This document shows positions 11,705-25,120 of a DNA stretch of 27,458 bases, piece by piece. A program made the translations under genes and the position numbers. The DNA is from a virus, in IMG/VR virus record IMGVR_UViG_3300014913_000061, positions 1-27,458 of that record; one strand, written 5' to 3'. Every line of letters begins with the position of its first letter. The first letter of the stretch is position 1. The notes beneath the pieces are model-generated. The model searched no databases, was not told the origin of the DNA, and saw only the letters and a program-made list of their open reading frames with translations.

Positions 11705-12322
11705 TTATCCTGAGAAACCCTTTTGCCGTTCCCTGTTTGGAAATTGTTTACTCTTTGCAATTTTTGCTCTGGTTATGGCATCATTGTAAAGAAATTGAAA
11801 TTGTCCGGCTACAGCCGGGTTAGTGTAAGGTTTTCCCGGTGAAAGCATCAGCCTGGCCTTTACGCCGGAAATTATTCCCTCGCCATAGCGATCTACAAGC
11901 CAATAAGGGAGTGTTCCATCCTGGAGAAACGGACGCAATACGAGTTTTAATCTCATTCCCCCTGTAATATCCGAGGAAGGGGCATAGCTGGAATGAGAAA
12001 AAATAAGTTTATAATCCTGTGAAAGGGAGTAGTAATCTTCAGGAAAATAGCTGAGATTCTCAAACGCATCATCTTCAGAAGTTTTTATTTTCAGCCACAC
12101 AATGCGTTGTATATTAGCATTGTATCCATGCTTAATAATGTATTCAGTCTGATCCGCCACAACATCAATATCGCCGGTTTCCTCGACCCATATTCCCGTG
12201 CGTTCGCAGAAGTCGCGGACCTTTTTTCCCATTTCATTAAGGATAACTGCATCGGTACAGCCCGGAAGATCCATTGCTGTATCAAGCAGAAGGTCTTTTA
12301 TGTTTACTGCATGTTCAGGCAT
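11705..12322 (-). CDS. head-tail adaptor-like protein
   Basis: A 205-residue ORF 15 nt upstream of the second adaptor-like gene. The N-terminal pattern (MDLPGCTDAVILNEMGKKVRDFCERTGIWVEE) matches many podovirus adaptor/connector proteins: a small helical start, x-x-x-R-D/E-F-C-x-x-T-x-x-W, then a beta strand with TEYIIKHG. A later segment (WLVDRYGEGIISGVKARLMLSPGKPYTNP) also fits the family's helical end. It probably assembles at the portal exit as a tail attachment ring. The ribosome-binding site is weak (AGAAAAGAA), so translation may depend on the leaky upstream junction. Confidence 0.62.
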   Translation of the reverse strand: MPEHAVNIKDLLLDTAMDLPGCTDAVILNEMGKKVRDFCERTGIWVEETGDIDVVADQTEYIIKHGYNANIQRIVWLKIKTSEDDAFENLSYFPEDYYSLSQDYKLIFSHSSYAPSSDITGGMRLKLVLRPFLQDGTLPYWLVDRYGEGIISGVKARLMLSPGKPYTNPAVAGQFQFLYNDAITRAKIAKSKQFPNRERQKGFSG

Positions 12323-12350: not shown

Positions 12351-12406
12351 ATTAAAAAAGAAAACCCCTGTCGTCCGTTGAATATTACGACGATCGATTC
12401 ATAATT
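12351..12406 (-). terminator. possible weak terminator overlapping the end of the linker-protein gene
   Basis: In minus-strand RNA a GTCGT / ACGAC stem (5 bp, 12-nt loop) spans the stop codon of the 145-residue gene and is followed by GGGG then a U-rich tract (UUUUCUUUUUU). The short stem and long loop make it a marginal intrinsic terminator. It does not belong to the GATCGGTAC hairpin family found further right. Confidence 0.35.
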
Positions 12407-12822
12407 GATCGCATACTATCTCTGGTCTTTTCAGTCCCAAGCTTTTTCATCGCATCATATTCTTTTTTAGTCGCCGGGCCTAAATATGTGTATTGGTATC
12501 GCTTAACCATTCCGGCAAACTTGCGGGGCTGATCCGGCGACTGCGAAAATTTCCGTTCAAGAGAATGATCTGCAACTTCCAGATGTTTCTTCGGCACAAT
12601 CGTTTCCACTCCACGCTGAATTATAAGAACTTCGCCGTTGACGGAAAGCATAACTTCGTCCGGCTGTCCCGGCGTGTATTTTTCCTGGAAGACAACTCTG
12701 CTGTATTCCTCTTTTGTCGGTTTATCTTTTTTAATTTCGTTCTTCCGTGCTTCCGATTTTTCCGCAGGGATTGTTGTCTGCTCTTGGCTTTTTTCTGCTT
12801 TTTTTTCTGGCTCTTGGCTCAT
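12385..12822 (-). CDS. head-module protein with charged N-terminus
   Basis: A 145-residue ORF with AAAGGG 6-7 nt before the ATG, just 22 nt past a U-tract hairpin. The first 45 residues are Lys/Glu-rich and disordered-looking (KKAEKSQEQTT, KSEARKNEIKKDKPTKE). The core (DEVMLSVNGEVLIIQRGVET, then VPKKHLEVADHSLERKF) has a beta hairpin followed by V-P-x-x-x-x-E-V, a pattern typical of small proteins that follow the capsid gene in N4-gp56-type phages. It is likely a virion or capsid-linked protein; the molecular role is unknown. Confidence 0.55.
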   Translation of the reverse strand: MSQEPEKKAEKSQEQTTIPAEKSEARKNEIKKDKPTKEEYSRVVFQEKYTPGQPDEVMLSVNGEVLIIQRGVETIVPKKHLEVADHSLERKFSQSPDQPRKFAGMVKRYQYTYLGPATKKEYDAMKKLGTEKTRDSMRSIMNRSS

Positions 12823-12844: not shown

Positions 12845-12889
12845 AAAATAAAAAAGGCGAATCAATACATTATCTGTACCGATCCGCCC
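12845..12889 (-). terminator. family hairpin T1 (intrinsic-terminator-like) after the decoration-like gene
   Basis: In minus-strand RNA: GGCGGATCGGTAC, a 7-nt loop, GTATTGATTCGCC, then a U-tract (UUUUUUAUUUUA). The 13-bp stem (12876-12888 with 12856-12868) contains G-U wobbles only when read on the minus strand; read on the plus strand they would be A-C mismatches. All 45 bases are identical to T2 at 18483-18527. The next gene starts 22 nt further on, leaving little room for a promoter in between. Confidence 0.75.
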
Positions 12890-12932
12890 GTTGTGAACCG
12901 TAAACTCCGGTTCCGGTTTTTATACTGTAAAG

Positions 12933-13259
12933 CTAGGGTGATAAAAGTCCGCCCTCAGCTTCGTAAACAAGTTCGTCTCCGCTATCATTTACTACAGCGG
13001 ATGCGCCGATTGTGAATCCTTTTGCCGCGGATCCTGCCGCACCGTCATAAGCCACAACACCTGCCGCTGCGGAACCCGCAGAGGTTTTTGTTCCGGTTGC
13101 TCCCACCGCCACGCCGTAAGCATTTTCGGTGTCTTCTTTCAGGTACACATGCTCCGTTCTGTCGGTAGTGTTTCTTACGGTAACTTTGTCCGGATCGAAT
13201 CCAAGCTCAATATTCATTGTGGCTCCGGTCGCAGCGATTATTCCGATTACTTTTTGCAT
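12933..13259 (-). CDS. capsid decoration-like protein
   Basis: A 108-residue ORF (AAGGAAAAG ribosome-binding site) directly after the major capsid gene. It shows the pattern of small proteins that accompany N4-gp56 capsids: an early I-E-L-G-F-D-P-D-K-V-T-V-R-N-T strand, a Gly/Ala/Thr-rich middle (GVAVGATGTKTSAGSAAAGV), then AYDG, GFTIGASAVVNDSGDEL and an aromatic end. Gene order and the GFTIG/VN motif suggest a head decoration or stabilising protein; the family function is not firmly known. It is followed by hairpin T1. Confidence 0.6.
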   Translation of the reverse strand: MQKVIGIIAATGATMNIELGFDPDKVTVRNTTDRTEHVYLKEDTENAYGVAVGATGTKTSAGSAAAGVVAYDGAAGSAAKGFTIGASAVVNDSGDELVYEAEGGLLSP

Positions 13260-13296
13260 TTTTCTTTTCCTTCGTTATTAGAATTTGTTAAGGAGA

Positions 13297-13333
13297 CAGG
13301 GGCCGAAACCCCTGATTCCATACGAACGAATCA
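13297..13333 (-). other. double hairpin between capsid and decoration-like genes
   Basis: In minus-strand RNA two small stems follow the capsid stop: TGATTC/GAATCA (13313-13333, 9-nt loop), then CAGGGG/CCCCTG (13297-13314, 6-nt loop); they overlap by two bases and so may alternate. There is no U-tract after them, so a terminator is unlikely; they may protect the capsid mRNA end or modulate the next gene, whose start is about 38 nt away. Confidence 0.4.
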
Positions 13334-13337
13334 CAAC

Positions 13338-14348
13338 TTACGGATTCTGCGAAGCTGCAACTTCCAGACGGGCGATATTATTCTCATTGAGAATAGCGCA
13401 AGCCTGATAAGTTTTCCATGATACAAAACCTCTTTGACCCAATGGATCTGATTTGGTTTTGGTTCCCGGATTGAGAACACCGATATCAATCGCTTTATTT
13501 CCCTGCAGAGGCACAATACCGTAGGCATCTTTTGCAAGAACAAGAAGCGGATATACGTCCGCATTTCCTGTCCCGGTTCCGCCATTTGTAAGATATGTGC
13601 TGCCACTCACGCCAGCTTCCAGCCACGGTTCAAACAGATCTGTAAGAATAATTCTTACCGATTCTATTTTTCCTATTTCTCCCGGAAGTATTTTGGTTGA
13701 ATCTGCATACTTCTCAGCAGGAAGGAATCCGGTAACATCCCGCAAATCCCCTTCACAGTCAGTATGTCCGAGGGCAAAATAAGCCGGTGCTACAGGCTCG
13801 GTTGCAACATCAGCAGATGCCTTCAGAATCTTGGAAATTTCACGGGCTCTCGCACGCTTGAAAGCTCTTTTGATCTTCCGGAAGTCGCTCTTTGTCGCAG
13901 GGCTGGTAACAAGGCTTCTGCTTGCCACGCCGTTGGCGTAGAAAACATTGGTGCCGGCTTTAAGGGCACTGATACGAACAAGTTCAACTGTTTCAGCGGC
14001 CTGTTCGCCGCAGACATCGGAGGCTTCATGCAAAACAGGGTCTTCATGAGTATCTTCGATTACATCCGTAATACCCGCGAGATCGCCATACTGCTCAAGC
14101 GTCACATTGACATCTGTTTTTGTAAGTTTCTGCCCTTCGGGAGTTACCCCTTCAGCCAGAGGCGATGTTGCCGGCGCGAAAGAATTATACCTTCTCCATT
14201 TGCGCTGCAATCCTTTTTTCTTACCTTGAGGGTCAAACTGCCCGAATCTTTCCAGAACGAGTAGAGCTTGAGCACGCTCAAGGAGCCGTCTCACGGCAAA
14301 TACAGCCGTGCGGGGAGAAATATCCCCAAAATGCGTTGAGTTTCCCAT
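13338..14348 (-). CDS. major capsid protein, N4-gp56 family
   Basis: A 336-residue ORF with AAAGGAG before the ATG. It shows the N4-gp56 signature in order: an N-terminal helical arm (FAVRRLLERAQALLVLERFG), SPLAEGVTPEGQKLTKTDV (about residues 61-79), then VTLEQYGDLAGITDVIEDTH (about 81-100), a helix with AAETVELVRISALKAG, and a C-terminal domain ending LEVAASQNP. This family has the HK97 capsid fold and forms the shell of N4-like and many temperate podoviruses. It lies downstream of the scaffold-like gene and is followed by a decoration-like gene, as in related phages. This is the most secure assignment in the head module. Confidence 0.9.
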   Translation of the reverse strand: MGNSTHFGDISPRTAVFAVRRLLERAQALLVLERFGQFDPQGKKKGLQRKWRRYNSFAPATSPLAEGVTPEGQKLTKTDVNVTLEQYGDLAGITDVIEDTHEDPVLHEASDVCGEQAAETVELVRISALKAGTNVFYANGVASRSLVTSPATKSDFRKIKRAFKRARAREISKILKASADVATEPVAPAYFALGHTDCEGDLRDVTGFLPAEKYADSTKILPGEIGKIESVRIILTDLFEPWLEAGVSGSTYLTNGGTGTGNADVYPLLVLAKDAYGIVPLQGNKAIDIGVLNPGTKTKSDPLGQRGFVSWKTYQACAILNENNIARLEVAASQNP

Positions 14349-14374
14349 TTAGGAACTCCTTTCTATGCTGAAAA

Positions 14375-14476
14375 CTATTTTTTTTCTTCTTGCTCTGAGG
14401 TCTTGATTTCCTTCTGGCCATTCAGTTCAGCAATATGTTTTTATGTTAATCGCGGTTAATTCCGCGCGAACATCAA
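14375..14476 (-). pseudogene. coding-like remnant after the Com-like gene, out of frame
   Basis: Between the Com-like stop and the capsid gene the minus strand reads as protein if one base is added in the T5 run at 14481-14485 and one A is removed from the A5 run at 14438-14442: VVDVRAELTAINIK then HIAELNGQKEIKTSEQEEKK and a stop. The sequence is charged and coiled-coil-like, without an own start codon. It may be the eroded C-terminal extension of the Com-like gene, or a chance reading. Confidence 0.35.
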
Positions 14477-14665
14477 CTACAAAAACTCAAATCTTACTAA
14501 ATTTTTCCCGAGACAGTGCCGCGTTCGGCAAATTGTCTCAATAATCACACCAGGGAAAGGCACAACAACAATTGCTAATAATTTTTTACAATATGGACAT
14601 CTCAATTTACGAGACCCCTCTACCGGTAATTCAATTATTTTTTTTGGATTCTTCCCAGATCTCAT
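14477..14665 (-). CDS. Com-like zinc-ribbon protein
   Basis: I start at the ATG at 14665, preceded by GGAGGAG with a 4-nt spacer; an ORF from 14722 only extends into the scaffold-like gene. The 62-residue protein has LRCPYCKKLLAIVVVPFPGV then IETICRTRHCLGKNLVRFEF: two Cys pairs (C-x2-C and C-x4-C) in the arrangement of phage Mu Com and related zinc fingers, though Com usually has C-x2-C in both. Mu Com activates translation of the mom DNA-modification gene by binding its mRNA. A similar RNA-binding role here is an inference; two methyltransferase genes occur in the same window. It overlaps the scaffold-like gene by 35 nt. Confidence 0.55.
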   Translation of the reverse strand: MRSGKNPKKIIELPVEGSRKLRCPYCKKLLAIVVVPFPGVIIETICRTRHCLGKNLVRFEFL

Positions 14666-15614
14666 CGAACTCCTCCAGATCCCCTTTGTGTGTCCTACTT
14701 TTACCAAAAAAACCGGGAGCACCCTTATCCTTCAATGCTCCTTTGTGCAGTGCATTTTTTTTACGCTTTTTTTCTCGCTTCTCGTTTTTTAGTTTTTTCC
14801 GGTTCTCGCGATCTTCAGGACTTTCAGTTATCTGATACTGCCGGATCAGGTAAACCCCATCTGCGGGATCATCGCTGTTAACCATTTCCTGTATTTTCCC
14901 GGGTTGTTTTTTCAGCCATTCGGTAAATTTTTTATTGTTGATTATATTCTGCCAGTCAGAATTTTCCTCAGTCATTGCCTGATCGAATGCCTTCTGTGTA
15001 AAGCTACTTTTAATTTCCATCACATCTTTTCCAGCAGCAATCTCCCCGCTGGCTATCGCTCCATCAATCAATTTGTTAGCTATGTGCTGTGCAACATAGA
15101 TAATAACATTACCAACTTCAGGGTAATCACTCATAAACTCCGACATATTCACATTTTCCCCGTCTGGAAGAGAAATCTCAGCGCCCTTCAGTTCTTCTGT
15201 GAAATAATCCATGTATTCTTCCGGATTAATCCTCTCATCAGGGGATGAATTAATATTCTTAAGATCGTCGTTCTCTGAAGCGTCATCATCGTCGTTCTCT
15301 GAAGCGTCATCATCGTCGTTCTCTGAAGCATCATCATCGTCGTTCTCTGAAGCATCGTCATCGTCGTTCTCTGAAGCGTCATTATCGTCGTTCTCTGAAG
15401 CGTCATCATCGTCGTTCTCTGAAGCGTCATCATCGTCGTTCTCTGAAGCGTCATCATCGTCGTTCTCATTTTCCAGTGCTACTTTTTTTGATTCTTCCCA
15501 AGCATCGTCGAACTCTTCCTCTTCATCTTTGGAAATAGACTGCTGTTCGAGTGTCTGATCGTCTGGATCTGAGGTATTGGAACTTTTACCTTCTGTCACG
15601 TTTTCTTTAGCCAT
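14631..15614 (-). CDS. acidic scaffold-like protein with eight DDDDASEN repeats
   Basis: A 327-residue ORF (AATAAGGAAA ribosome-binding site) located before the capsid gene, where phage scaffolds are usually found. It has a Ser/Asp/Glu-rich N-terminus, a motif EEFDDAWEESKK (about residues 34-45), eight near-perfect copies of DDDDASEN (about 52-115), a helical core (AEISLPDGENVNMSEFMSDY, then a helix-rich segment) and a Lys-rich C-terminus. The C-terminal end repeats the early motif as EEFDEIWEESKK. Acidic, helical and repetitive proteins in this position commonly scaffold procapsid assembly. The role is inferred from position and composition; there is no protease signature. Confidence 0.6.
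   Translation of the reverse strand: MAKENVTEGKSSNTSDPDDQTLEQQSISKDEEEEFDDAWEESKKVALENENDDDDASENDDDDASENDDDDASENDDNDASENDDDDASENDDDDASENDDDDASENDDDDASENDDLKNINSSPDERINPEEYMDYFTEELKGAEISLPDGENVNMSEFMSDYPEVGNVIIYVAQHIANKLIDGAIASGEIAAGKDVMEIKSSFTQKAFDQAMTEENSDWQNIINNKKFTEWLKKQPGKIQEMVNSDDPADGVYLIRQYQITESPEDRENRKKLKNEKREKKRKKNALHKGALKDKGAPGFFGKSRTHKGDLEEFDEIWEESKKNN
15265..15468 (-). repeat. 8 tandem 24-bp repeats encoding DDDDASEN
   Basis: Eight copies of a 24-bp unit plus half a ninth, inside the scaffold-like gene. The copies differ mainly at third codon positions and by one D-to-N change (GAT to AAT), so the protein repeat is preserved. Exact tandem repeats of this length are prone to copy-number change by slippage; an antisense-frame ORF across them is a shadow. 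Confidence 0.9.
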
Positions 15615-15660
15615 TGTTTTTCCTTATTTTAGTAAAAAAACCGACACAATATTTCTTATG

Positions 15661-15861
15661 CTAACCGCTATCGCGCATTCTTGCGGCAAGCCCGGCCCGG
15701 CGGGTCCTGTGTTCTTTCCTCTTTCTCTCCGCTTTTTTTCTTACCTCTTCCGCTTTGCGTAGCTTTGCCGCCTTAGCCTTTTTTCGTTTTTTATTTTCTT
15801 CTTTTTTCGTCTCTTTTTGAGACATAACAAAATTAAAAATATTTTTTGCAAGTCCAGGCAT
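15661..15861 (-). CDS. small Lys/Arg-rich coiled-coil protein
   Basis: A 66-residue ORF with a strong AGGAGG 5 nt before the ATG. After a short hydrophobic start (MPGLAKNIFNFVM) it is one long basic helix (KETKKEENKKRKKAKAAKL, RKAEEVRKKAERKRKEHRTR). The family is not recognised. The very positive charge suggests nucleic-acid or acidic-protein contact; the acidic scaffold-like protein is encoded immediately downstream, so an electrostatic partner is a tempting but unsupported idea. An extended hairpin (15888-15967) lies directly upstream. Confidence 0.55.
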   Translation of the reverse strand: MPGLAKNIFNFVMSQKETKKEENKKRKKAKAAKLRKAEEVRKKAERKRKEHRTRRAGLAARMRDSG

Positions 15862-15887
15862 TTCGCCCTCCTGTTTTTATTCCAATG

Positions 15888-15967
15888 GTTGAGATGAAAG
15901 CCCCGGATCCCGGCGGCCCTTGATCGGTACGAAAAGGGATAATCGCTACCAGAACTTTCATCTCAAC
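15888..15967 (-). ncRNA. 80-nt long-stem structured element
   Basis: A perfect 13-bp inverted repeat (GTTGAGATGAAAG with CTTTCATCTCAAC) encloses 54 nt that include a further CCCTT/AAGGG hairpin with TTCGTACCGATC in its loop, plus CCGGGATCCGG. There is no U-tract on either strand, so it is not a terminator. The loop carries the GATCGGTAC core of the hairpin family in the opposite orientation. It starts 8 nt after one stop codon and ends about 26 nt before the next ATG, in the leader of the basic-protein gene. It could be a processing site, a regulatory leader or a small RNA. Confidence 0.45.
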
Positions 15968-15975
15968 ACTGGAAC

Positions 15976-16233
15976 TCATGATGCACCTGCCTTACTTATA
16001 AGTGTTTTAGCCTCGTCTTCTAATTTTCCAAAAAACTTCAACCCCTCTATTACCCCGAGTTTGTAATAAATATGATTTTTAACATCAGTATCTGAACATC
16101 TCGGATTCTGTTCCATATTTCTTCGTTCAGCTTCTATCTTATTTTCAAACGCATCGAAAATTACTTTTCCGACTCCGGTTTCCCGGGCTTGTGCTATATA
16201 AAGAGCATCTCCGCTTTTTTTTATATATCCCAT
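15976..16233 (-). CDS. small helical protein after the portal
   Basis: An 85-residue ORF beginning at ATG 16233, 11 nt past hairpin T4; AACGG is a weak ribosome-binding site. It is helical and charged (EAERRNMEQN, KLGVIEGLKFFGKLEDEAKT) with no cysteines forming a metal site and no membrane segment. Short proteins of this kind next to portal genes in podoviruses are usually unnamed head proteins. Function not recognised. Confidence 0.6.
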   Translation of the reverse strand: MGYIKKSGDALYIAQARETGVGKVIFDAFENKIEAERRNMEQNPRCSDTDVKNHIYYKLGVIEGLKFFGKLEDEAKTLISKAGAS

Positions 16234-16244
16234 ACCGTTTTCTC

Positions 16245-16281
16245 AAAAAAAAGGCAAACCGACACGATGTACCGATTCGCC
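16245..16281 (-). terminator. family hairpin T4 after the portal gene
   Basis: Minus-strand RNA: GGCGAATCGGTAC, a 3-nt loop, GTGTCGGTTTGCC, then U8. The 13-bp stem is complete but uses four G-U pairs in different places from T1/T2, so the pairing is kept while the bases differ. It lies about 116 nt past the portal stop and 11 nt before the next start. Confidence 0.7.
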
Positions 16282-16397
16282 AGCAACAAAAATAAAGAAG
16301 AATGTTATTATTCTAATATCTCAGATTATAGCTATTTCAACTCTTTTTTTTAAAACTAAAACCACTCTTCATAACACTTCACGATTCTCAACAAAAC

Positions 16398-18458
16398 TCA
16401 CAACCCTTTATTGTTGGTTGCCTCAATCTGCCCGATAACCTTAGCGCGTTCCAAATTAAATTTTTCCGATTCGAGTTTTAATTTTGCCGCATCAATATCC
16501 ATTTTTACCCGTTCCATTTCTGCGTCTATTGTCAATTTCTCAAGATTTGCCTTAGCCGCTTCAATTTCCATAAGTAGCTTTTGCTTCTGAAGATCTGTAA
16601 TTTCCGCATTCTCCTGCATCGCCGCCTCTGAGCTCTGCCGACGTTCCTCATCCAGTGCTTGCATTTCTTCCAAAGTTTTCATATATTTCGCAGGATCAAG
16701 ATTATTTGCCATCATAATTGACTCTAGCAATTCCCGAGGTTTAACCTGCGTAGCAAAAAATTCATTTCCGGAAACAACTGCCAGCAGATGCTGGAGAGAC
16801 GAAAGTAGAATTATTTTATTTTTAAAAGCGACAAAACCCTCGGATTTTACTGAATAATCACCCTTCGGAATCTTGACATCCGGATCCTCCATATTCTCTT
16901 TGTAAAAATCAAAAACGATAGGCTCAATCAAATATTCATCAAAATTACGGACAACTCCTGCCATATACTTTCCTGCAGATTCATTCTGAATAGATACCTC
17001 GTAAGCAGTAGCAGCACCCTTTGAACTTATTCCCTGGCTTATTTTTGGGATCATGCTGGAATCATCAAGATAGCGCTCCGCTACATTGAGCACATCCAGC
17101 AAACTCGCACCTACATCCGGGATAACAATCGAATGCAACGCCTGTCGGACATCCAGACACTCCTCTGCCAGTTTATATTCTTTGCCAGGATAAAGCCCTT
17201 TATCATCGTCATCGTCCTCAATCATCCTGGGTTTAGTCCCGATAATCACGTTCCCAGAAAGCTTCTTATTGTCCTCAAATGCTTGCATAGCACCATTCAC
17301 AACTTTTTGCATTACCTCTGTATTGTCGGCAATCCCCGTGCCACCAATATCTCCAACATTGTCCTCCCAGACAACTCGGTAATAAGGCCTGTCCTCTTTA
17401 TTTATACGGGCAAATCTTACAATTTCATCCCCACTTCCCGCAACACAAACCATCACCTCAATTTCTCGACCGTCATACTCAGGAACTTCAAATACATTAG
17501 GAGATTTTTTATCTTTTAACTTCTCGAAGCTTTCCACAAGAGTCGCAGGCACTCTCCCCCAGAACTCAAGATATCGAATATTATTTCCCCTGTAAGTCAG
17601 GTTCCGGAGCTTTGGCTCAAGAGTTGTCTCATAGTCGGTTCTGTTTGTTTCACTGTCAGAGCTTTTTTCGGTCTTTATTACTCGGGCAATTGCATCGGAG
17701 TCCGAATATTCATCATGTTTCAATCCTTCCAGCCAGTAAGCGGAAACAAGCTGCCGTTCAATTATCCCGACAGATTCTCTTAAATCGTCATTTTCAAGAT
17801 CACGGAAGATGTTCCAGAGCGAAGAATACTGCACACCGGGAACCTCTTTTACTTTTTTTATGTATTCCCACTCATCATGATCCTCGACAAATCGCGAATG
17901 CTCTACGTCAACAACGGTTTTTTTCGCAAAAGCCTCGCCGTAAATAGCACAAGCCATTATTTCCTTCATTATTGTTTTATCGACTTTTGCTTCTCTCAAC
18001 TGCTGATCTATCAGTTTTTTCATTCTAGCAATCGCATCATCGATATCTTCCGGGCTCTGTGGTTTTCCGGAAGTACTAGATCTTGCAAACATTTCCTGCA
18101 CCCTGGTTGTCCCCCGGCTATCATCCGCTGCATCCATCCCGACCGAGGAGTCAACTGCAGCATTTTTTATTTCAGACTCGGAATGCGGAGAAAGAGAAAG
18201 AGAAAACGGAAGCTTGCCGCTTTGAAGCAAAATATCCATAACCAGCGAGTACCCCGTGATTATTTTCTGACGGGTCAGCCCTACAAATGTATCACTCTGC
18301 CAATCTTTTTTCTCTCCGTTATTTTTCCAGAAATTCTGAAGCTCACAACGAAAGGCATCAAGATTTTTCTGCCACTTTTCTTCAAGCTCTCTCCGATTTT
18401 GCTCCCAATTAGAGTAGAGTTCCGTAATATAAATGGCAAGATTAGATTTATTATCCAC
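16398..18458 (-). CDS. portal protein
   Basis: A 686-residue ORF with a GTG start (AGG about 8 nt upstream), in the position and size expected of podovirus portals. It has an N-terminal helix-rich region (ELYSNWEQNRRELEEKWQKN), then WQSDTFVGLTRQKIITGYSL, the W-x-S-x-x-F-V-x-L-T-R-x-K pattern of portal proteins in N4-gp56-type phages, followed by a kinase-like insertion, a clip/stem region (GGTGIADNTEVMQKVVNGAM) and PKISQGISSKGAATAYEVSI. The last 70 residues form a strong coiled coil (KQKLLMEIEAAKANLEKL). It follows the terminase genes and precedes the capsid. Confidence 0.8.
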   Translation of the reverse strand: MDNKSNLAIYITELYSNWEQNRRELEEKWQKNLDAFRCELQNFWKNNGEKKDWQSDTFVGLTRQKIITGYSLVMDILLQSGKLPFSLSLSPHSESEIKNAAVDSSVGMDAADDSRGTTRVQEMFARSSTSGKPQSPEDIDDAIARMKKLIDQQLREAKVDKTIMKEIMACAIYGEAFAKKTVVDVEHSRFVEDHDEWEYIKKVKEVPGVQYSSLWNIFRDLENDDLRESVGIIERQLVSAYWLEGLKHDEYSDSDAIARVIKTEKSSDSETNRTDYETTLEPKLRNLTYRGNNIRYLEFWGRVPATLVESFEKLKDKKSPNVFEVPEYDGREIEVMVCVAGSGDEIVRFARINKEDRPYYRVVWEDNVGDIGGTGIADNTEVMQKVVNGAMQAFEDNKKLSGNVIIGTKPRMIEDDDDDKGLYPGKEYKLAEECLDVRQALHSIVIPDVGASLLDVLNVAERYLDDSSMIPKISQGISSKGAATAYEVSIQNESAGKYMAGVVRNFDEYLIEPIVFDFYKENMEDPDVKIPKGDYSVKSEGFVAFKNKIILLSSLQHLLAVVSGNEFFATQVKPRELLESIMMANNLDPAKYMKTLEEMQALDEERRQSSEAAMQENAEITDLQKQKLLMEIEAAKANLEKLTIDAEMERVKMDIDAAKLKLESEKFNLERAKVIGQIEATNNKGL

Positions 18459-18482
18459 AAAAATACCTATTGTTATATTTTA

Positions 18483-18527
18483 AAAATAAAAAAGGCGAAT
18501 CAATACATTATCTGTACCGATCCGCCC
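18483..18527 (-). terminator. family hairpin T2 before the portal gene
   Basis: Identical over 45 bases to T1 (12845-12889): GGCGGATCGGTAC / GTATTGATTCGCC stem plus UUUUUUAUUUU in minus-strand RNA. It separates the 141-residue gene from the portal, whose GTG start is 24 nt away. The perfect identity of two copies nearly 6 kb apart implies recent duplication or ongoing gene conversion. Confidence 0.75.
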
Positions 18528-18547
18528 ATGGAGATGAAAAATTTTAT

Positions 18548-18973
18548 TTATTTTGCTGAGAGCTCTCGCCCCCCGAACTGATCATTTCTTACAGTAACTC
18601 CGGGAACAAAAACAAGAGCTTCCGCCACCGCATAACTTCCATCAGGATTCCGCTGTTGCGTGCTAACCTGCACAATAGCACCATTAGGCGTTGACATTGC
18701 TTTTGTGCTTTTCATCCAACCTTCTCTTTCACTGGATGCTTTGCAGAGAAGCTGAAACGCATCCCCATTGCCGTACACCTCGATATCCTTGACGTTTTTT
18801 CTTGCCCCGGATATATCGGAATTGCAAAGTGTTTTCATTCCTTTAGGTGATCCAGCATTGCATTTTAATACGTCTGCCTCTTCTCCGCTCGGATTGATCG
18901 CCTGTGCGCCCTTTTCAAATGATTCATTAATGGCTGGTGCTTCTGGTGCTTCTGGTGCTGGTGCTGGGGACAT
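18548..18973 (-). CDS. head-module protein of unknown function
   Basis: I use the ATG at 18973, preceded by GAGGAG with a good spacer; the frame is open to 19000. The 141-residue protein starts with an Ala/Pro/Glu-rich disordered stretch (SPAPAPEAPEAPAIN). It then has a beta-rich core with three cysteines (VLKCNAGSPKGMKTLCNSD, FQLLCKASS) and ends in strands (YAVAEALVFVPGVTV). The family is not recognised. It sits directly upstream of the portal and is framed by hairpins T3 and T2, which may make it a separately regulated transcription unit. Confidence 0.6.
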   Translation of the reverse strand: MSPAPAPEAPEAPAINESFEKGAQAINPSGEEADVLKCNAGSPKGMKTLCNSDISGARKNVKDIEVYGNGDAFQLLCKASSEREGWMKSTKAMSTPNGAIVQVSTQQRNPDGSYAVAEALVFVPGVTVRNDQFGGRELSAK

Positions 18974-19014
18974 ATTTATCTCCTCTTTTTGGGTTATCAT
19001 TCCTGAATTTTCTC

Positions 19015-19056
19015 AAAAAAAAAGCGGACCGATACATTTTGTACCGATCCGCTTTT
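19015..19056 (-). terminator. family hairpin T3, extended and near-symmetric
   Basis: Minus-strand RNA: AAAAGCGGATCGGTAC, a 5-nt loop, GTATCGGTCCGCTTTT, then more U. The stem reaches 16 bp with two G-U pairs. Because both flanks are A/T tracts, it could work in both directions, but the G-U pattern again favours the minus strand. It lies 40 nt past the stop of the 222-residue gene. Confidence 0.72.
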
Positions 19057-19095
19057 GGATAAATTTCAAGAATTATATTTACATGAAATAATATT

Positions 19096-19764
19096 TTACG
19101 CTATTTCTAAAAAGTCAAATGGTTTTCTTGTTTTTTTTTTACTTTTTCTATATGGAAACCTTTCAAAACCCATAAGAAGGCTCATAAGAGCAAAGATTTC
19201 CGGAGATTTACGTTCGTGATCTACACTATAGGAAGTAAGTGCATTCATTAGCGGCTCATCATTCCTATGCTGCAGCTTTTTGAGTGTCAGTTGTTCCCAG
19301 ATTCTCAACTCGGCATCAACATTATCCCCCCATAATATTTCCGTGAAATGCGGCGTGGGATCAACCATAGGACTCCGGAGTATCTGCAATAAATATGACT
19401 TATACGTTTCTCCCCTTGCTCCGGATCCATGATAAAAGAAGCTTGCTCCGAAATACTTACTCCAACACCTGTTAAACCATTCGCACAACCCCTTGAAACG
19501 TATGCCTCCGTCGTCGCCCAACACATGTTCTATAGTAACAAAACTCGTTTGCTGAAAAATGTAAATGATCCCAGACTGGACATCCATTCCGCCGAGCAAC
19601 GCAAATCCCCTGATACCCTCCGCAGGATCATCGGACATTTTAGGCCAGCAGATACCCCCGCGAATATAAAAATTATTCCGCTCACCATTCTTAAAAAAAA
19701 GAGTGGAAATATTCCGCCCGGACCTCAACACACTCTCGACATCCTCATATAAGAGATTCCTCAT
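19096..19764 (-). CDS. unrecognised protein between terminase and portal
   Basis: A 222-residue ORF with CAGGGGTG 4 nt before ATG. No family is recognised. It has aromatic/Gly-rich segments (NNFYIRGGICWPKM, YIFQQTSFVTIEHVLGDDGG, EWFNRCWSKYFGASFFYHG), a Thr/Pro-rich middle and a basic C-terminus (FPYRKSKKKTRKPFDF). The conserved-looking mix of Trp, Gly and His could fit a small enzyme or a portal-vertex protein, but no catalytic motif is clear. Its position after TerS and before the portal is typical of packaging accessory genes. Confidence 0.55.
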   Translation of the reverse strand: MRNLLYEDVESVLRSGRNISTLFFKNGERNNFYIRGGICWPKMSDDPAEGIRGFALLGGMDVQSGIIYIFQQTSFVTIEHVLGDDGGIRFKGLCEWFNRCWSKYFGASFFYHGSGARGETYKSYLLQILRSPMVDPTPHFTEILWGDNVDAELRIWEQLTLKKLQHRNDEPLMNALTSYSVDHERKSPEIFALMSLLMGFERFPYRKSKKKTRKPFDFLEIA

Positions 19765-19796
19765 AAAACACCCCTGCCCTATTATAACGGGTACGG

Positions 19797-20219
19797 TTAA
19801 TTTGGAGGCTTTGTTGAAACCCCCATGTTTGAAACAAATATAACATCCCCGGAATGTTCAATTTCTGAAGCAGCATCCCATCCCTCCATTTTCCCGAGTC
19901 GTTCTATAGCCTTAATTCTTACACTGGCTCCTATTTCAGGATCAAGGGAAATTGCAGAAAGCAGCAGCATTGCCCGCTCTCTATTTATCAAACTCCCAGG
20001 TATTTCGCCTGAAGAGGATTCTTTTATTGTCGCTACTTTTAATTCTGACACCCGATTTTTTATATCGGTTCGTTTAAGCCACCGCTTTGCCCCTTTCCTT
20101 GCACTACCTGGGGCAAGTTCCGTTTTTTCAGCAGCTATTACATAAGCGGCAACTCTCTCTTCCCCACTAGCAATCAGTACGCAGAACGCCTCATGTTTTT
20201 CATTTTTTAATGCGCCCAT
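19797..20219 (-). CDS. terminase small subunit-like protein
   Basis: I prefer the ATG at 20219, 10 nt after GGAGG; a TTG at 20225 with a 4-nt spacer is the alternative. The 140-residue protein begins with the small-terminase pattern (NEKHEAFCVLIASGEERVAA, then a short helix-turn-helix region followed by ARKGAKRWLKR) and a linker helix (VSELKVATIKE), and ends in a helical oligomerisation part (VRIKAIERLGKMEGWD). Small terminases bind the packaging site and deliver DNA to the large subunit. Here the gene follows rather than precedes TerL, which is unusual. Assignment is by pattern and context. Confidence 0.6.
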   Translation of the reverse strand: MGALKNEKHEAFCVLIASGEERVAAYVIAAEKTELAPGSARKGAKRWLKRTDIKNRVSELKVATIKESSSGEIPGSLINRERAMLLLSAISLDPEIGASVRIKAIERLGKMEGWDAASEIEHSGDVIFVSNMGVSTKPPN

Positions 20220-20235
20220 AATCAAACGTCCTCCC

Positions 20236-20262
20236 GGTCTGTCGGGTAGATCCCGATCTGCC
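20236..20262 (-). other. leader hairpin T6, diverged relative of the hairpin family
   Basis: Minus-strand RNA GG-CAGA-TCGGG / CCCGA-CAGA-CC with a 5-nt loop: two short stems and a symmetric CAGA/CAGA internal loop. The 5' arm (AGGCAGATCGG) resembles that of T5. It ends 7-15 nt before the TerS start, so it may shield or present the GGAGG site, which lies just 3' of the structure. Confidence 0.4.
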
Positions 20263-20279
20263 TATTATATAATACAATA

Positions 20280-20313
20280 AAAAAGGCAGAACGATTTATA
20301 TACCGATCTACCT
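20280..20313 (-). terminator. family hairpin T5 in the TerS leader
   Basis: Minus-strand RNA AGGTAGATCGGTA / AATCGTTCTGCCT, a 4-nt loop, then UUUUUAUUG. The stem has one U-U mismatch. It lies only about 18 nt downstream of the -10 of the candidate promoter at 20331-20359, so it could act as an attenuator. Next to it, 20312-20327 forms a CTAAAA/TTTTAG stem that competes for its first bases. Confidence 0.6.
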
Positions 20314-20330: not shown

Positions 20331-20359
20331 AAAATACACCGGAAACAAAACAATGTCAA
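20331..20359 (-). promoter_or_regulatory. sigma70-type promoter candidate between TerL and TerS
   Basis: On the minus strand a consensus -35 TTGACA (20359-20354), a 17-nt spacer and -10 TATTTT (4 of 6 match). It lies 31 nt past the TerL stop and would drive TerS and the head genes through a leader with hairpins T5 and T6. It is the best promoter I find in a window that otherwise has gene-to-gene spacing too tight for one. Confidence 0.5.
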
Positions 20360-24140: not shown

Positions 24141-24193
24141 CTTTCCGCCAGAGCTTCAATTTGGTCGAGTTTCGATTCAAGTTTTGCCTGATT
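24141..24193 (-). repeat. direct repeat copy A (downstream copy)
   Basis: 53 bp matching copy B at 25002-25054 at 52 of 53 positions, 861 bp away. In minus-strand reading it encodes AKLESKLDQIEALAER followed by IER and a stop in ATGA overlap with the methyltransferase. This copy therefore looks like the original end of the small coiled-coil gene. Confidence 0.85.
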
Positions 24194-24980
24194 GCGTTTC
24201 AATTATCTGTGCGGCAGAAGCCGATAACAGGCGGGTTAATGTCTCCAGTTTCGGCAATTGAGTAGTTTTGCATACAGCAAATACTTGGTTGAAATGGGTA
24301 TCCAGAAGCTGATGAATCTGATAATTGCCGTCAATAACACCATCGGTAATAAAATAAGCCATAATTTCAGCTGCCTTGGCCAGATGATAAAGACCTATCA
24401 GTTCCAATGCGGCGACTTTGGCAGATGAAGGTTCTTTTCCTTCAAAATATTGTTTTTCAAACTCATTTTGCGTATTTCGCAGCTGTGCAATTTTTTCCAA
24501 TACGGCATCTAGATCATCCCAGCCTTTTTTCCAAATAAGCCGTAACCACACATCAATAATCGCACTCCAGGTACGATCATGCCAATCTGCTGAATTGGGT
24601 GGCAGTTGCGGCCAATCGATTTCCCTTAGTAGGCGTGCGGCATCACTGCCCATATCACCCAGCAGAGCAAGTGATCCCAGTTTCAATAGACGGATGCCTT
24701 CTTCCAGCGGATTATCCTTCCGAGGCAAAATACGATAGAGCCTGAATGCATCAGCTGCTGCTTGTCTAAGTAAAGATGTTTTTTCTTCATCCTCTTCAAA
24801 ACGATCCAGGATCAGATAAAGCGTTGCCATTTCCAAAGATTCAGCAACTCGTTGCACTAAAGAACAATCAATATCAGCAGTCTGTTGTAATAATTCTCGC
24901 TCGATAAGTACCTTTTGTGCCAGTTTTAAGGCTTCCCTGCGGGAGGCGTCAATGCTATCTAATAACAAGTGGGTCATCAT
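24177..24980 (-). CDS. inserted all-helical ORF of unknown function
   Basis: A 267-residue ORF starting at ATG 24980 after an ideal AGGAGGTGAT site and in ATGA overlap with the small coiled-coil gene. It is fully helical (SLVQRVAESLEMATLYLILD, RQAAADAFRLYRILP, EEGIRLLKLGSLALLGDMGS, LELIGLYHLAKAAEIMAYF), with TPR-like hydrophobic spacing, and has no catalytic motif, signal or membrane segment. Its last residues (SGKT) come from repeat copy A, so the natural C-terminus is probably lost. The whole ORF lies between 53-bp direct repeats inside an older gene. It may be the N-terminal part of a larger host protein; I cannot name the family. Confidence 0.6.
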   Translation of the reverse strand: MMTHLLLDSIDASRREALKLAQKVLIERELLQQTADIDCSLVQRVAESLEMATLYLILDRFEEDEEKTSLLRQAAADAFRLYRILPRKDNPLEEGIRLLKLGSLALLGDMGSDAARLLREIDWPQLPPNSADWHDRTWSAIIDVWLRLIWKKGWDDLDAVLEKIAQLRNTQNEFEKQYFEGKEPSSAKVAALELIGLYHLAKAAEIMAYFITDGVIDGNYQIHQLLDTHFNQVFAVCKTTQLPKLETLTRLLSASAAQIIETQSGKT

Positions 24981-25120
24981 GATGCATCACCTCCTTTCAC
25001 TCTTTCCGCCAGAGCTTCAATTTGGTCGAGTTTTGATTCAAGTTTTGCCTGATTTTTTTTAAGTTCAGCAAGTGTTTTTTTCAGCTTCTTAAACTTTTTA
25101 ATTTTCTCTGACTTTGTCAT
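24977..25120 (-). CDS. 47-residue coiled-coil protein, 3' end replaced by the insertion
   Basis: ATG at 25120 in ATGA overlap with the nuclease-like gene. The product MTKSEKIKKFKKLKKTLAEL continues KKNQAKLESKLDQIEALAER and then VKGGDAS before a stop overlapping the next ATG. It is a Lys-rich heptad coiled coil. Without the insertion it would end ...IER and overlap the methyltransferase start, as copy A still shows. It is too short for most ORF calls but its coupling to both neighbours supports it. Confidence 0.55.
   Translation of the reverse strand: MTKSEKIKKFKKLKKTLAELKKNQAKLESKLDQIEALAERVKGGDAS
25002..25054 (-). repeat. direct repeat copy B (upstream copy)
   Basis: Partner of copy A. It lies inside the intact part of the coiled-coil gene. 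The single C/T difference is silent or conservative in the coiled-coil frame, and the 861-bp spacing is a multiple of three. Confidence 0.85.

Follow-up and report, generated by a model that had tools for sequence, protein, structure and literature searches.

Sequence-related terminator-like hairpins at five gene junctions of the packaging and head operon of an uncultured phage

Introduction

Why should one hairpin sequence recur between the packaging and head genes of a phage, and what would it do there? The question is raised by the IMG/VR virus record IMGVR_UViG_3300014913_000061, which represents an uncultured phage; the window analysed here is the whole record of 27,458 bases. All called genes are carried by the minus strand, in the order integrase-like, terminase large subunit (TerL), TerS, portal, scaffold-like, capsid, and then adaptor and tail genes. 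An earlier note on this DNA had described the hairpins and had proposed stoichiometry control, regulated anti-termination or RNA processing of the head-gene messages as their role. The main genes are the following:

13338 to 14348, minus strand: major capsid protein (MCP) gene, phrog_1357, of N4-gp56 type by its relative
16398 to 18458, minus strand: portal gene, phrog_332, where it is listed as head-tail adaptor
18548 to 18973, minus strand: accessory gene of 141 aa without a family match; a hairpin copy on each side; missing at the equivalent junction of the relatives L006 and L007
20390 to 21790, minus strand: TerL gene

The nearest named relative of the capsid protein carries the annotation N4-gp56 family. 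The scaffold-like gene (14631-15614) contains about eight or nine in-frame 24-bp repeats at 15264-15470, and a direct repeat of 64 nt, 91% identical, is present at 24141-24204 and 25002-25065, 861 nt apart, among early genes.

Results

The hairpins, with their scores in a covariance model, are listed in the order of transcription:

20280 to 20313, minus strand: terminator hairpin copy after TerL and before TerS; 12-bp stem with one mismatch, U-tract UUUUUUAUU; 49.8 bits
19015 to 19056, minus strand: terminator hairpin copy after gene 19096-19764 and before gene 18548-18973; 17-bp stem, U-tract; 61.2 bits
18483 to 18527, minus strand: terminator hairpin copy after gene 18548-18973 and before the portal gene; 15-bp stem; 60.1 bits
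16245 to 16281, minus strand: terminator hairpin copy after the portal gene and before gene 15976-16233; 13-bp stem, U8; 45.8 bits
12845 to 12889, minus strand: terminator hairpin copy after gene 12933-13259 (behind MCP) and before gene 12385-12822; 60.1 bits

Our analysis recovered all five hairpins with their minus-strand U-tracts, as the earlier note had described them, and the stems are perfect over 13-17 bp in every copy except that at 20280. The folding energies of the minus-strand RNA range from -13.0 to -24.3 kcal/mol (z -2.4 to -7.6), and the plus strand folds more weakly in all five, the minus/plus values being -22.0/-10.5, -14.8/-4.2, -21.9/-10.5, -24.3/-16.6 and -13.0/-5.4 kcal/mol, which bears out the claim that G-U wobble keeps the pairing in minus-strand RNA alone. 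In a terminator scan four of the five ranked at the top with 13-17 pairs, and all other candidates had 5-7. The hairpins also form one sequence family, as had been proposed: 96.5% of the 57 sequence-by-pair cells are paired, and pairing falls to 27-47% in slid controls, in which the partner was moved by 1-3 columns. Compensatory double changes occur at four of the 15 pairs, a number reached by 8 of 500 shuffles; this value comes from four distinct sequences only and is supportive, not overwhelming. When the window was searched with the covariance model, the five scored 45.8-61.2 bits and the next minus-strand sequence 14.6 bits; because the model was built from the same five, these scores tell how far the copies stand apart from other sequence in the window and are not an independent test. 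Conservation is higher in the 5' arm than in the 3' arm (81% against 64% pairwise). The 5' arm is rich in G, the Cs that face it are free to change to U, and the difference can come from G-U tolerance alone, because a change from G-C to G-U keeps the pair and a change to A-C does not.

All five hairpins sit downstream of the stop codon of a same-strand gene, and the distance to the next start codon agrees on checking with the previously noted range of about 11-60 nt. Eight gaps of at least 75 nt are present between positions 12,322 and 21,787, and a family hairpin occupies five of them. The remaining three contain a long hairpin (15879-15975), a short hairpin without a U-tract (capsid gene to gene 12933) and neither of these (scaffold to capsid, 282 nt). 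This last gap (14349-14630), which measures about 250 nt in L006, carries the dyad CGCGG-TTAATT-CCGCG, and a capsid promoter or leader may lie inside it. The remark of the earlier note that the tail region has no such hairpins holds, but it is partly trivial and uninformative alone, because the tail gaps are at most 20 nt.

With a G+C-containing hairpin directly before a U-tract on the transcribed strand and a place behind a same-strand gene, the copies have the features of an intrinsic terminator. When the native leaders were included, the terminator was the best fold for all five, and regulated anti-termination found no direct support. A d'Aubenton-Carafa-type score was about 26 for 12845, 24 for 18483, 12 for 16245, 6 for 19015 and -1 for 20280. 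The strengths probably differ, because the stems range from -13 to -24 kcal/mol and the U-tracts vary. Attenuation by leader pairing was rejected, as a leader hairpin over part of the 5' arm of 20280 formed only with downstream RNA and otherwise lost to the terminator.

The copies at 12845-12889 and 18483-18527 are identical at 45 of 45 positions, exactly as claimed before, and their flanks are at chance level, with 17 of 60 positions identical on each side. Because the identity stops at unrelated flanks, the copied unit is the hairpin together with its U-tract. Two other elements resemble parts of this unit:

20244 to 20266, minus strand: degenerate neighbouring copy, reading AGGCAGAUCGGGAUCUACC on the minus strand, between hairpin 20280 and the TerS ribosome-binding site; no U-tract on the minus strand
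15879 to 15975, minus strand: long intergenic hairpin with a 27-bp stem and one bulge; -48.3 kcal/mol, z -4.7; takes up the space between two small genes

The degenerate copy appeared in the covariance search as a plus-strand match of 17.6 bits (E 0.02), and an inverted stretch resembling the 5' arm at 15912-15930 is a second further relic. The loop of the long hairpin holds GUACCGAUC-AAGGG-CCGCC, which, allowing for a bulge, is complementary to the 5' arm of the terminators. None of 400 shuffles has this pattern, so the relation of loop to arm is likely real; the loop may be an inverted relic of the hairpin unit or a candidate antisense RNA, and the relic is an equally good explanation.

Six IMG/VR loci (L006-L011), whose capsid proteins are 62-64% identical to that of the window, were compared. 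In L009 and L011 a single terminator, unrelated in sequence, stands behind the gene following MCP, a place equivalent to 12845-12889, and L006 has one, also unrelated, directly after MCP. Because each of these three has one, a terminator close to the capsid gene is recurrent and ordinary; the hairpin family itself is absent from all three. In L006 and L007 the counterpart of gene 19096 abuts the portal gene at 2 nt, whereas in the window gene 18548 lies between them with two hairpin copies, and in L008 its slot is occupied by a gene to which no similarity was detected, the junctions there being 6 and 10 nt long. The junctions around this slot measure 2-10 nt in L006 and L008 against 89-122 nt with hairpins in the window, which supports a lineage-specific insertion of the hairpins there.

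Searches beyond these loci gave the same picture. The covariance model found only generic terminators in 82 related loci (E 0.017 or worse), and closer relatives sought through the portal, TerL or gene 19096 included none carrying the hairpins. In the IMG/VR viral contigs, where searches may leave out very near records, the hairpin patterns gave one chance coding match and none with the U-tract pattern, and the long hairpin 15879-15975 gave no match. No Rfam family scored above its gathering score, the sub-threshold matches being L20_leader (24.4 against 58.7) and Bacilli-1 (19.3 against 55.6). A scattering of the hairpins over the host chromosome, which would speak against a role in the operon, found no support, as a scan of 84,980 GTDB species with one strict pattern returned a single palindromic chance match, in Leucobacter; host-wide placement is unlikely, because neither IMG/VR nor GTDB genomes yielded a copy. 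What looked like a hairpin family in L083 was really a tandem coding repeat of 111 nt (five or more units, 18345-18818) that mimics terminators on the opposite strand. As far as these collections show, the hairpin family is private to this lineage, and it looks like a lineage-specific unit inserted into several junctions by copying.

Matches to a promoter consensus are present upstream of three hairpins:

20331 to 20359, minus strand: sigma-70-like promoter TTGACA-17-TATTTT, directly upstream of hairpin 20280; consensus match only
19090 to 19118, minus strand: sigma-70-like match upstream of another hairpin; consensus match only
16325 to 16354, minus strand: sigma-70-like match upstream of a further hairpin; consensus match only

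Their single-gap shuffle chances are 0.10, 0.25 and 0.21; as a weak suggestion, these candidate promoters might restart transcription. The earlier statement that little room is left for promoters is correct for the space between hairpin and start codon, but it does not extend to the sequence upstream of these three hairpins.

Discussion

With good confidence, we regard the five hairpins as intrinsic (Rho-independent) terminators of the leftward packaging and head operon, probably leaky and derived from a copied unit of about 45 nt; they are best read as ordinary terminators that probably let part of the transcription through. As the polymerase leaves a gene, the RNA would fold into a hairpin of 12-17 bp followed by the U-tract, a fraction of the polymerases would stop at it, and the rest would read into the next gene. 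The expected result is a transcript gradient, in which messages become less abundant step by step along the operon and those upstream end at defined 3' positions. Because the genes behind the hairpins include essential virion genes on the same strand, polymerase has to read through unless each gene has its own promoter. In place of leakiness, the region could consist of several transcription units that start at the promoters in front of three hairpins, or an antiterminator not seen here could suppress all five. The hairpin-plus-U-tract unit would have been pasted into several junctions, once together with or around the accessory gene, perhaps by illegitimate or homologous recombination. Tuning of message amounts by terminator-like elements is the part of the earlier operon interpretation that is best supported, whereas anti-termination has no direct support and processing is not indicated, because every copy keeps its U-tract.

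In T4-like phages, promoter-early stem-loop cassettes (PeSLs) contain an early promoter of sigma-70 type and are located in hyperplastic regions. It is possible, though we hold it only tentatively, that the hairpins are mobile regulatory cassettes of this type, that is, recombination sites which shuffle accessory genes between junctions and carry termination along. The two identical 45-nt copies without flank identity would fit, and so would the promoter matches upstream of three hairpins and gene 18548-18973, which lies between two copies in a slot that is empty in L006 and L007 and holds a dissimilar gene in L008. This slot is variable among the relatives, though none of them has the hairpins, and with no second related genome carrying the family no shuffling event is directly visible. 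Related terminator stem-loops are repeated in this one genome (for comparison, a 50-kb RB49 segment has two related stem-loop pairs), but a sigma-70-type promoter in each cassette was not found: three of the five have an upstream consensus match, at shuffle chances of 0.10-0.25, and none is shared between copies. Because a promoter in each copy was looked for and not found, the family is not filed as PeSL.

The remaining explanations are less probable. Stable hairpins at gene ends of polycistronic messages can protect 3' ends, and the copies might be such stabilisers or processing sites acting mainly on mRNA decay; this seems improbable, as the U-tract that directly follows the stem in all five is not needed for protection, and stabilisation could in any case go together with termination instead of replacing it. 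A very unlikely reading is anti-termination of the operon by an antisense RNA, the loop of 15879-15975, that would base-pair with the conserved 5' arm of each terminator as it is transcribed. Outside the hairpins themselves, no sequence in the window complements the arm better than this loop, it carries both GUACCGAUC and CCGCC, and the better conservation of the 5' arm would suit such pairing, but G-U tolerance can account for that conservation and an inverted relic for the match. In addition, the interaction energy is not clearly better than that of shuffled loops (fractions 0.075-0.38), the terminators' own stems exceed the 9-bp contact, and the element was not found elsewhere in the viral contigs. 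We give slightly less credit still to a terminator regulon with a common 5' arm that this loop RNA opens together for full read-through of the head operon. Least credible is a role at the DNA level as operators, recombination sites or N4-type single-stranded hairpin promoters, to which the imperfect dyad symmetry and the N4-gp56-type capsid protein might point. The G-U pairs are valid in one RNA strand only and break the DNA symmetry, and N4 hairpin promoters have stems of 5-7 bp, unlike the U-tract-bearing stems of 12-17 bp described here; the N4-like promoter that the capsid type had raised was rejected on the strand-specific G-U pairing.

 If termination is partial, head-protein ratios would be set by pasting one terminator unit into junctions, and the idea of a copied stem-loop cassette, taken from T4-like phages, would also cover a structural operon in an unrelated group of phages. 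The five related terminators of one operon, from -13 to -24 kcal/mol, are also a natural series, useful for relating stem changes to read-through.

Terminators in such operons are well known; what is unusual here is that five of them look as if one unit had been copied. In phage LUZ100 a strong terminator has been mapped immediately behind the MCP gene (PMC10134795). This terminator and T-phi of T7 stand behind the major capsid gene in the late operon, a place that hairpin 12845 and the terminators of L006, L009 and L011 fit, but those podoviruses have a single one there, whereas the window has five sequence-related copies, also after TerL, the portal gene and two other genes. The repeated palindromes of Cluster O mycobacteriophages, 17 bp long, and the stoperators of Cluster A (PMC4351075) are likewise one motif repeated many times in a phage genome, frequently between genes, and genes have come or gone between the copies, but they are short DNA motifs without U-tracts, partly inside genes, and not RNA terminators. 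The PeSLs (Arbiol 2010, Comeau 2014, as cited in PMC4503421) are terminator stem-loops that recur between genes, may lie on either side of accessory genes and have the look of copied units; they differ in their early promoter and hyperplastic regions from the hairpins described here, which have no common promoter and are placed in the head module. The closest kin of the family are the capsid-linked podovirus terminators in function and the T4-like PeSLs in the look of the copies.
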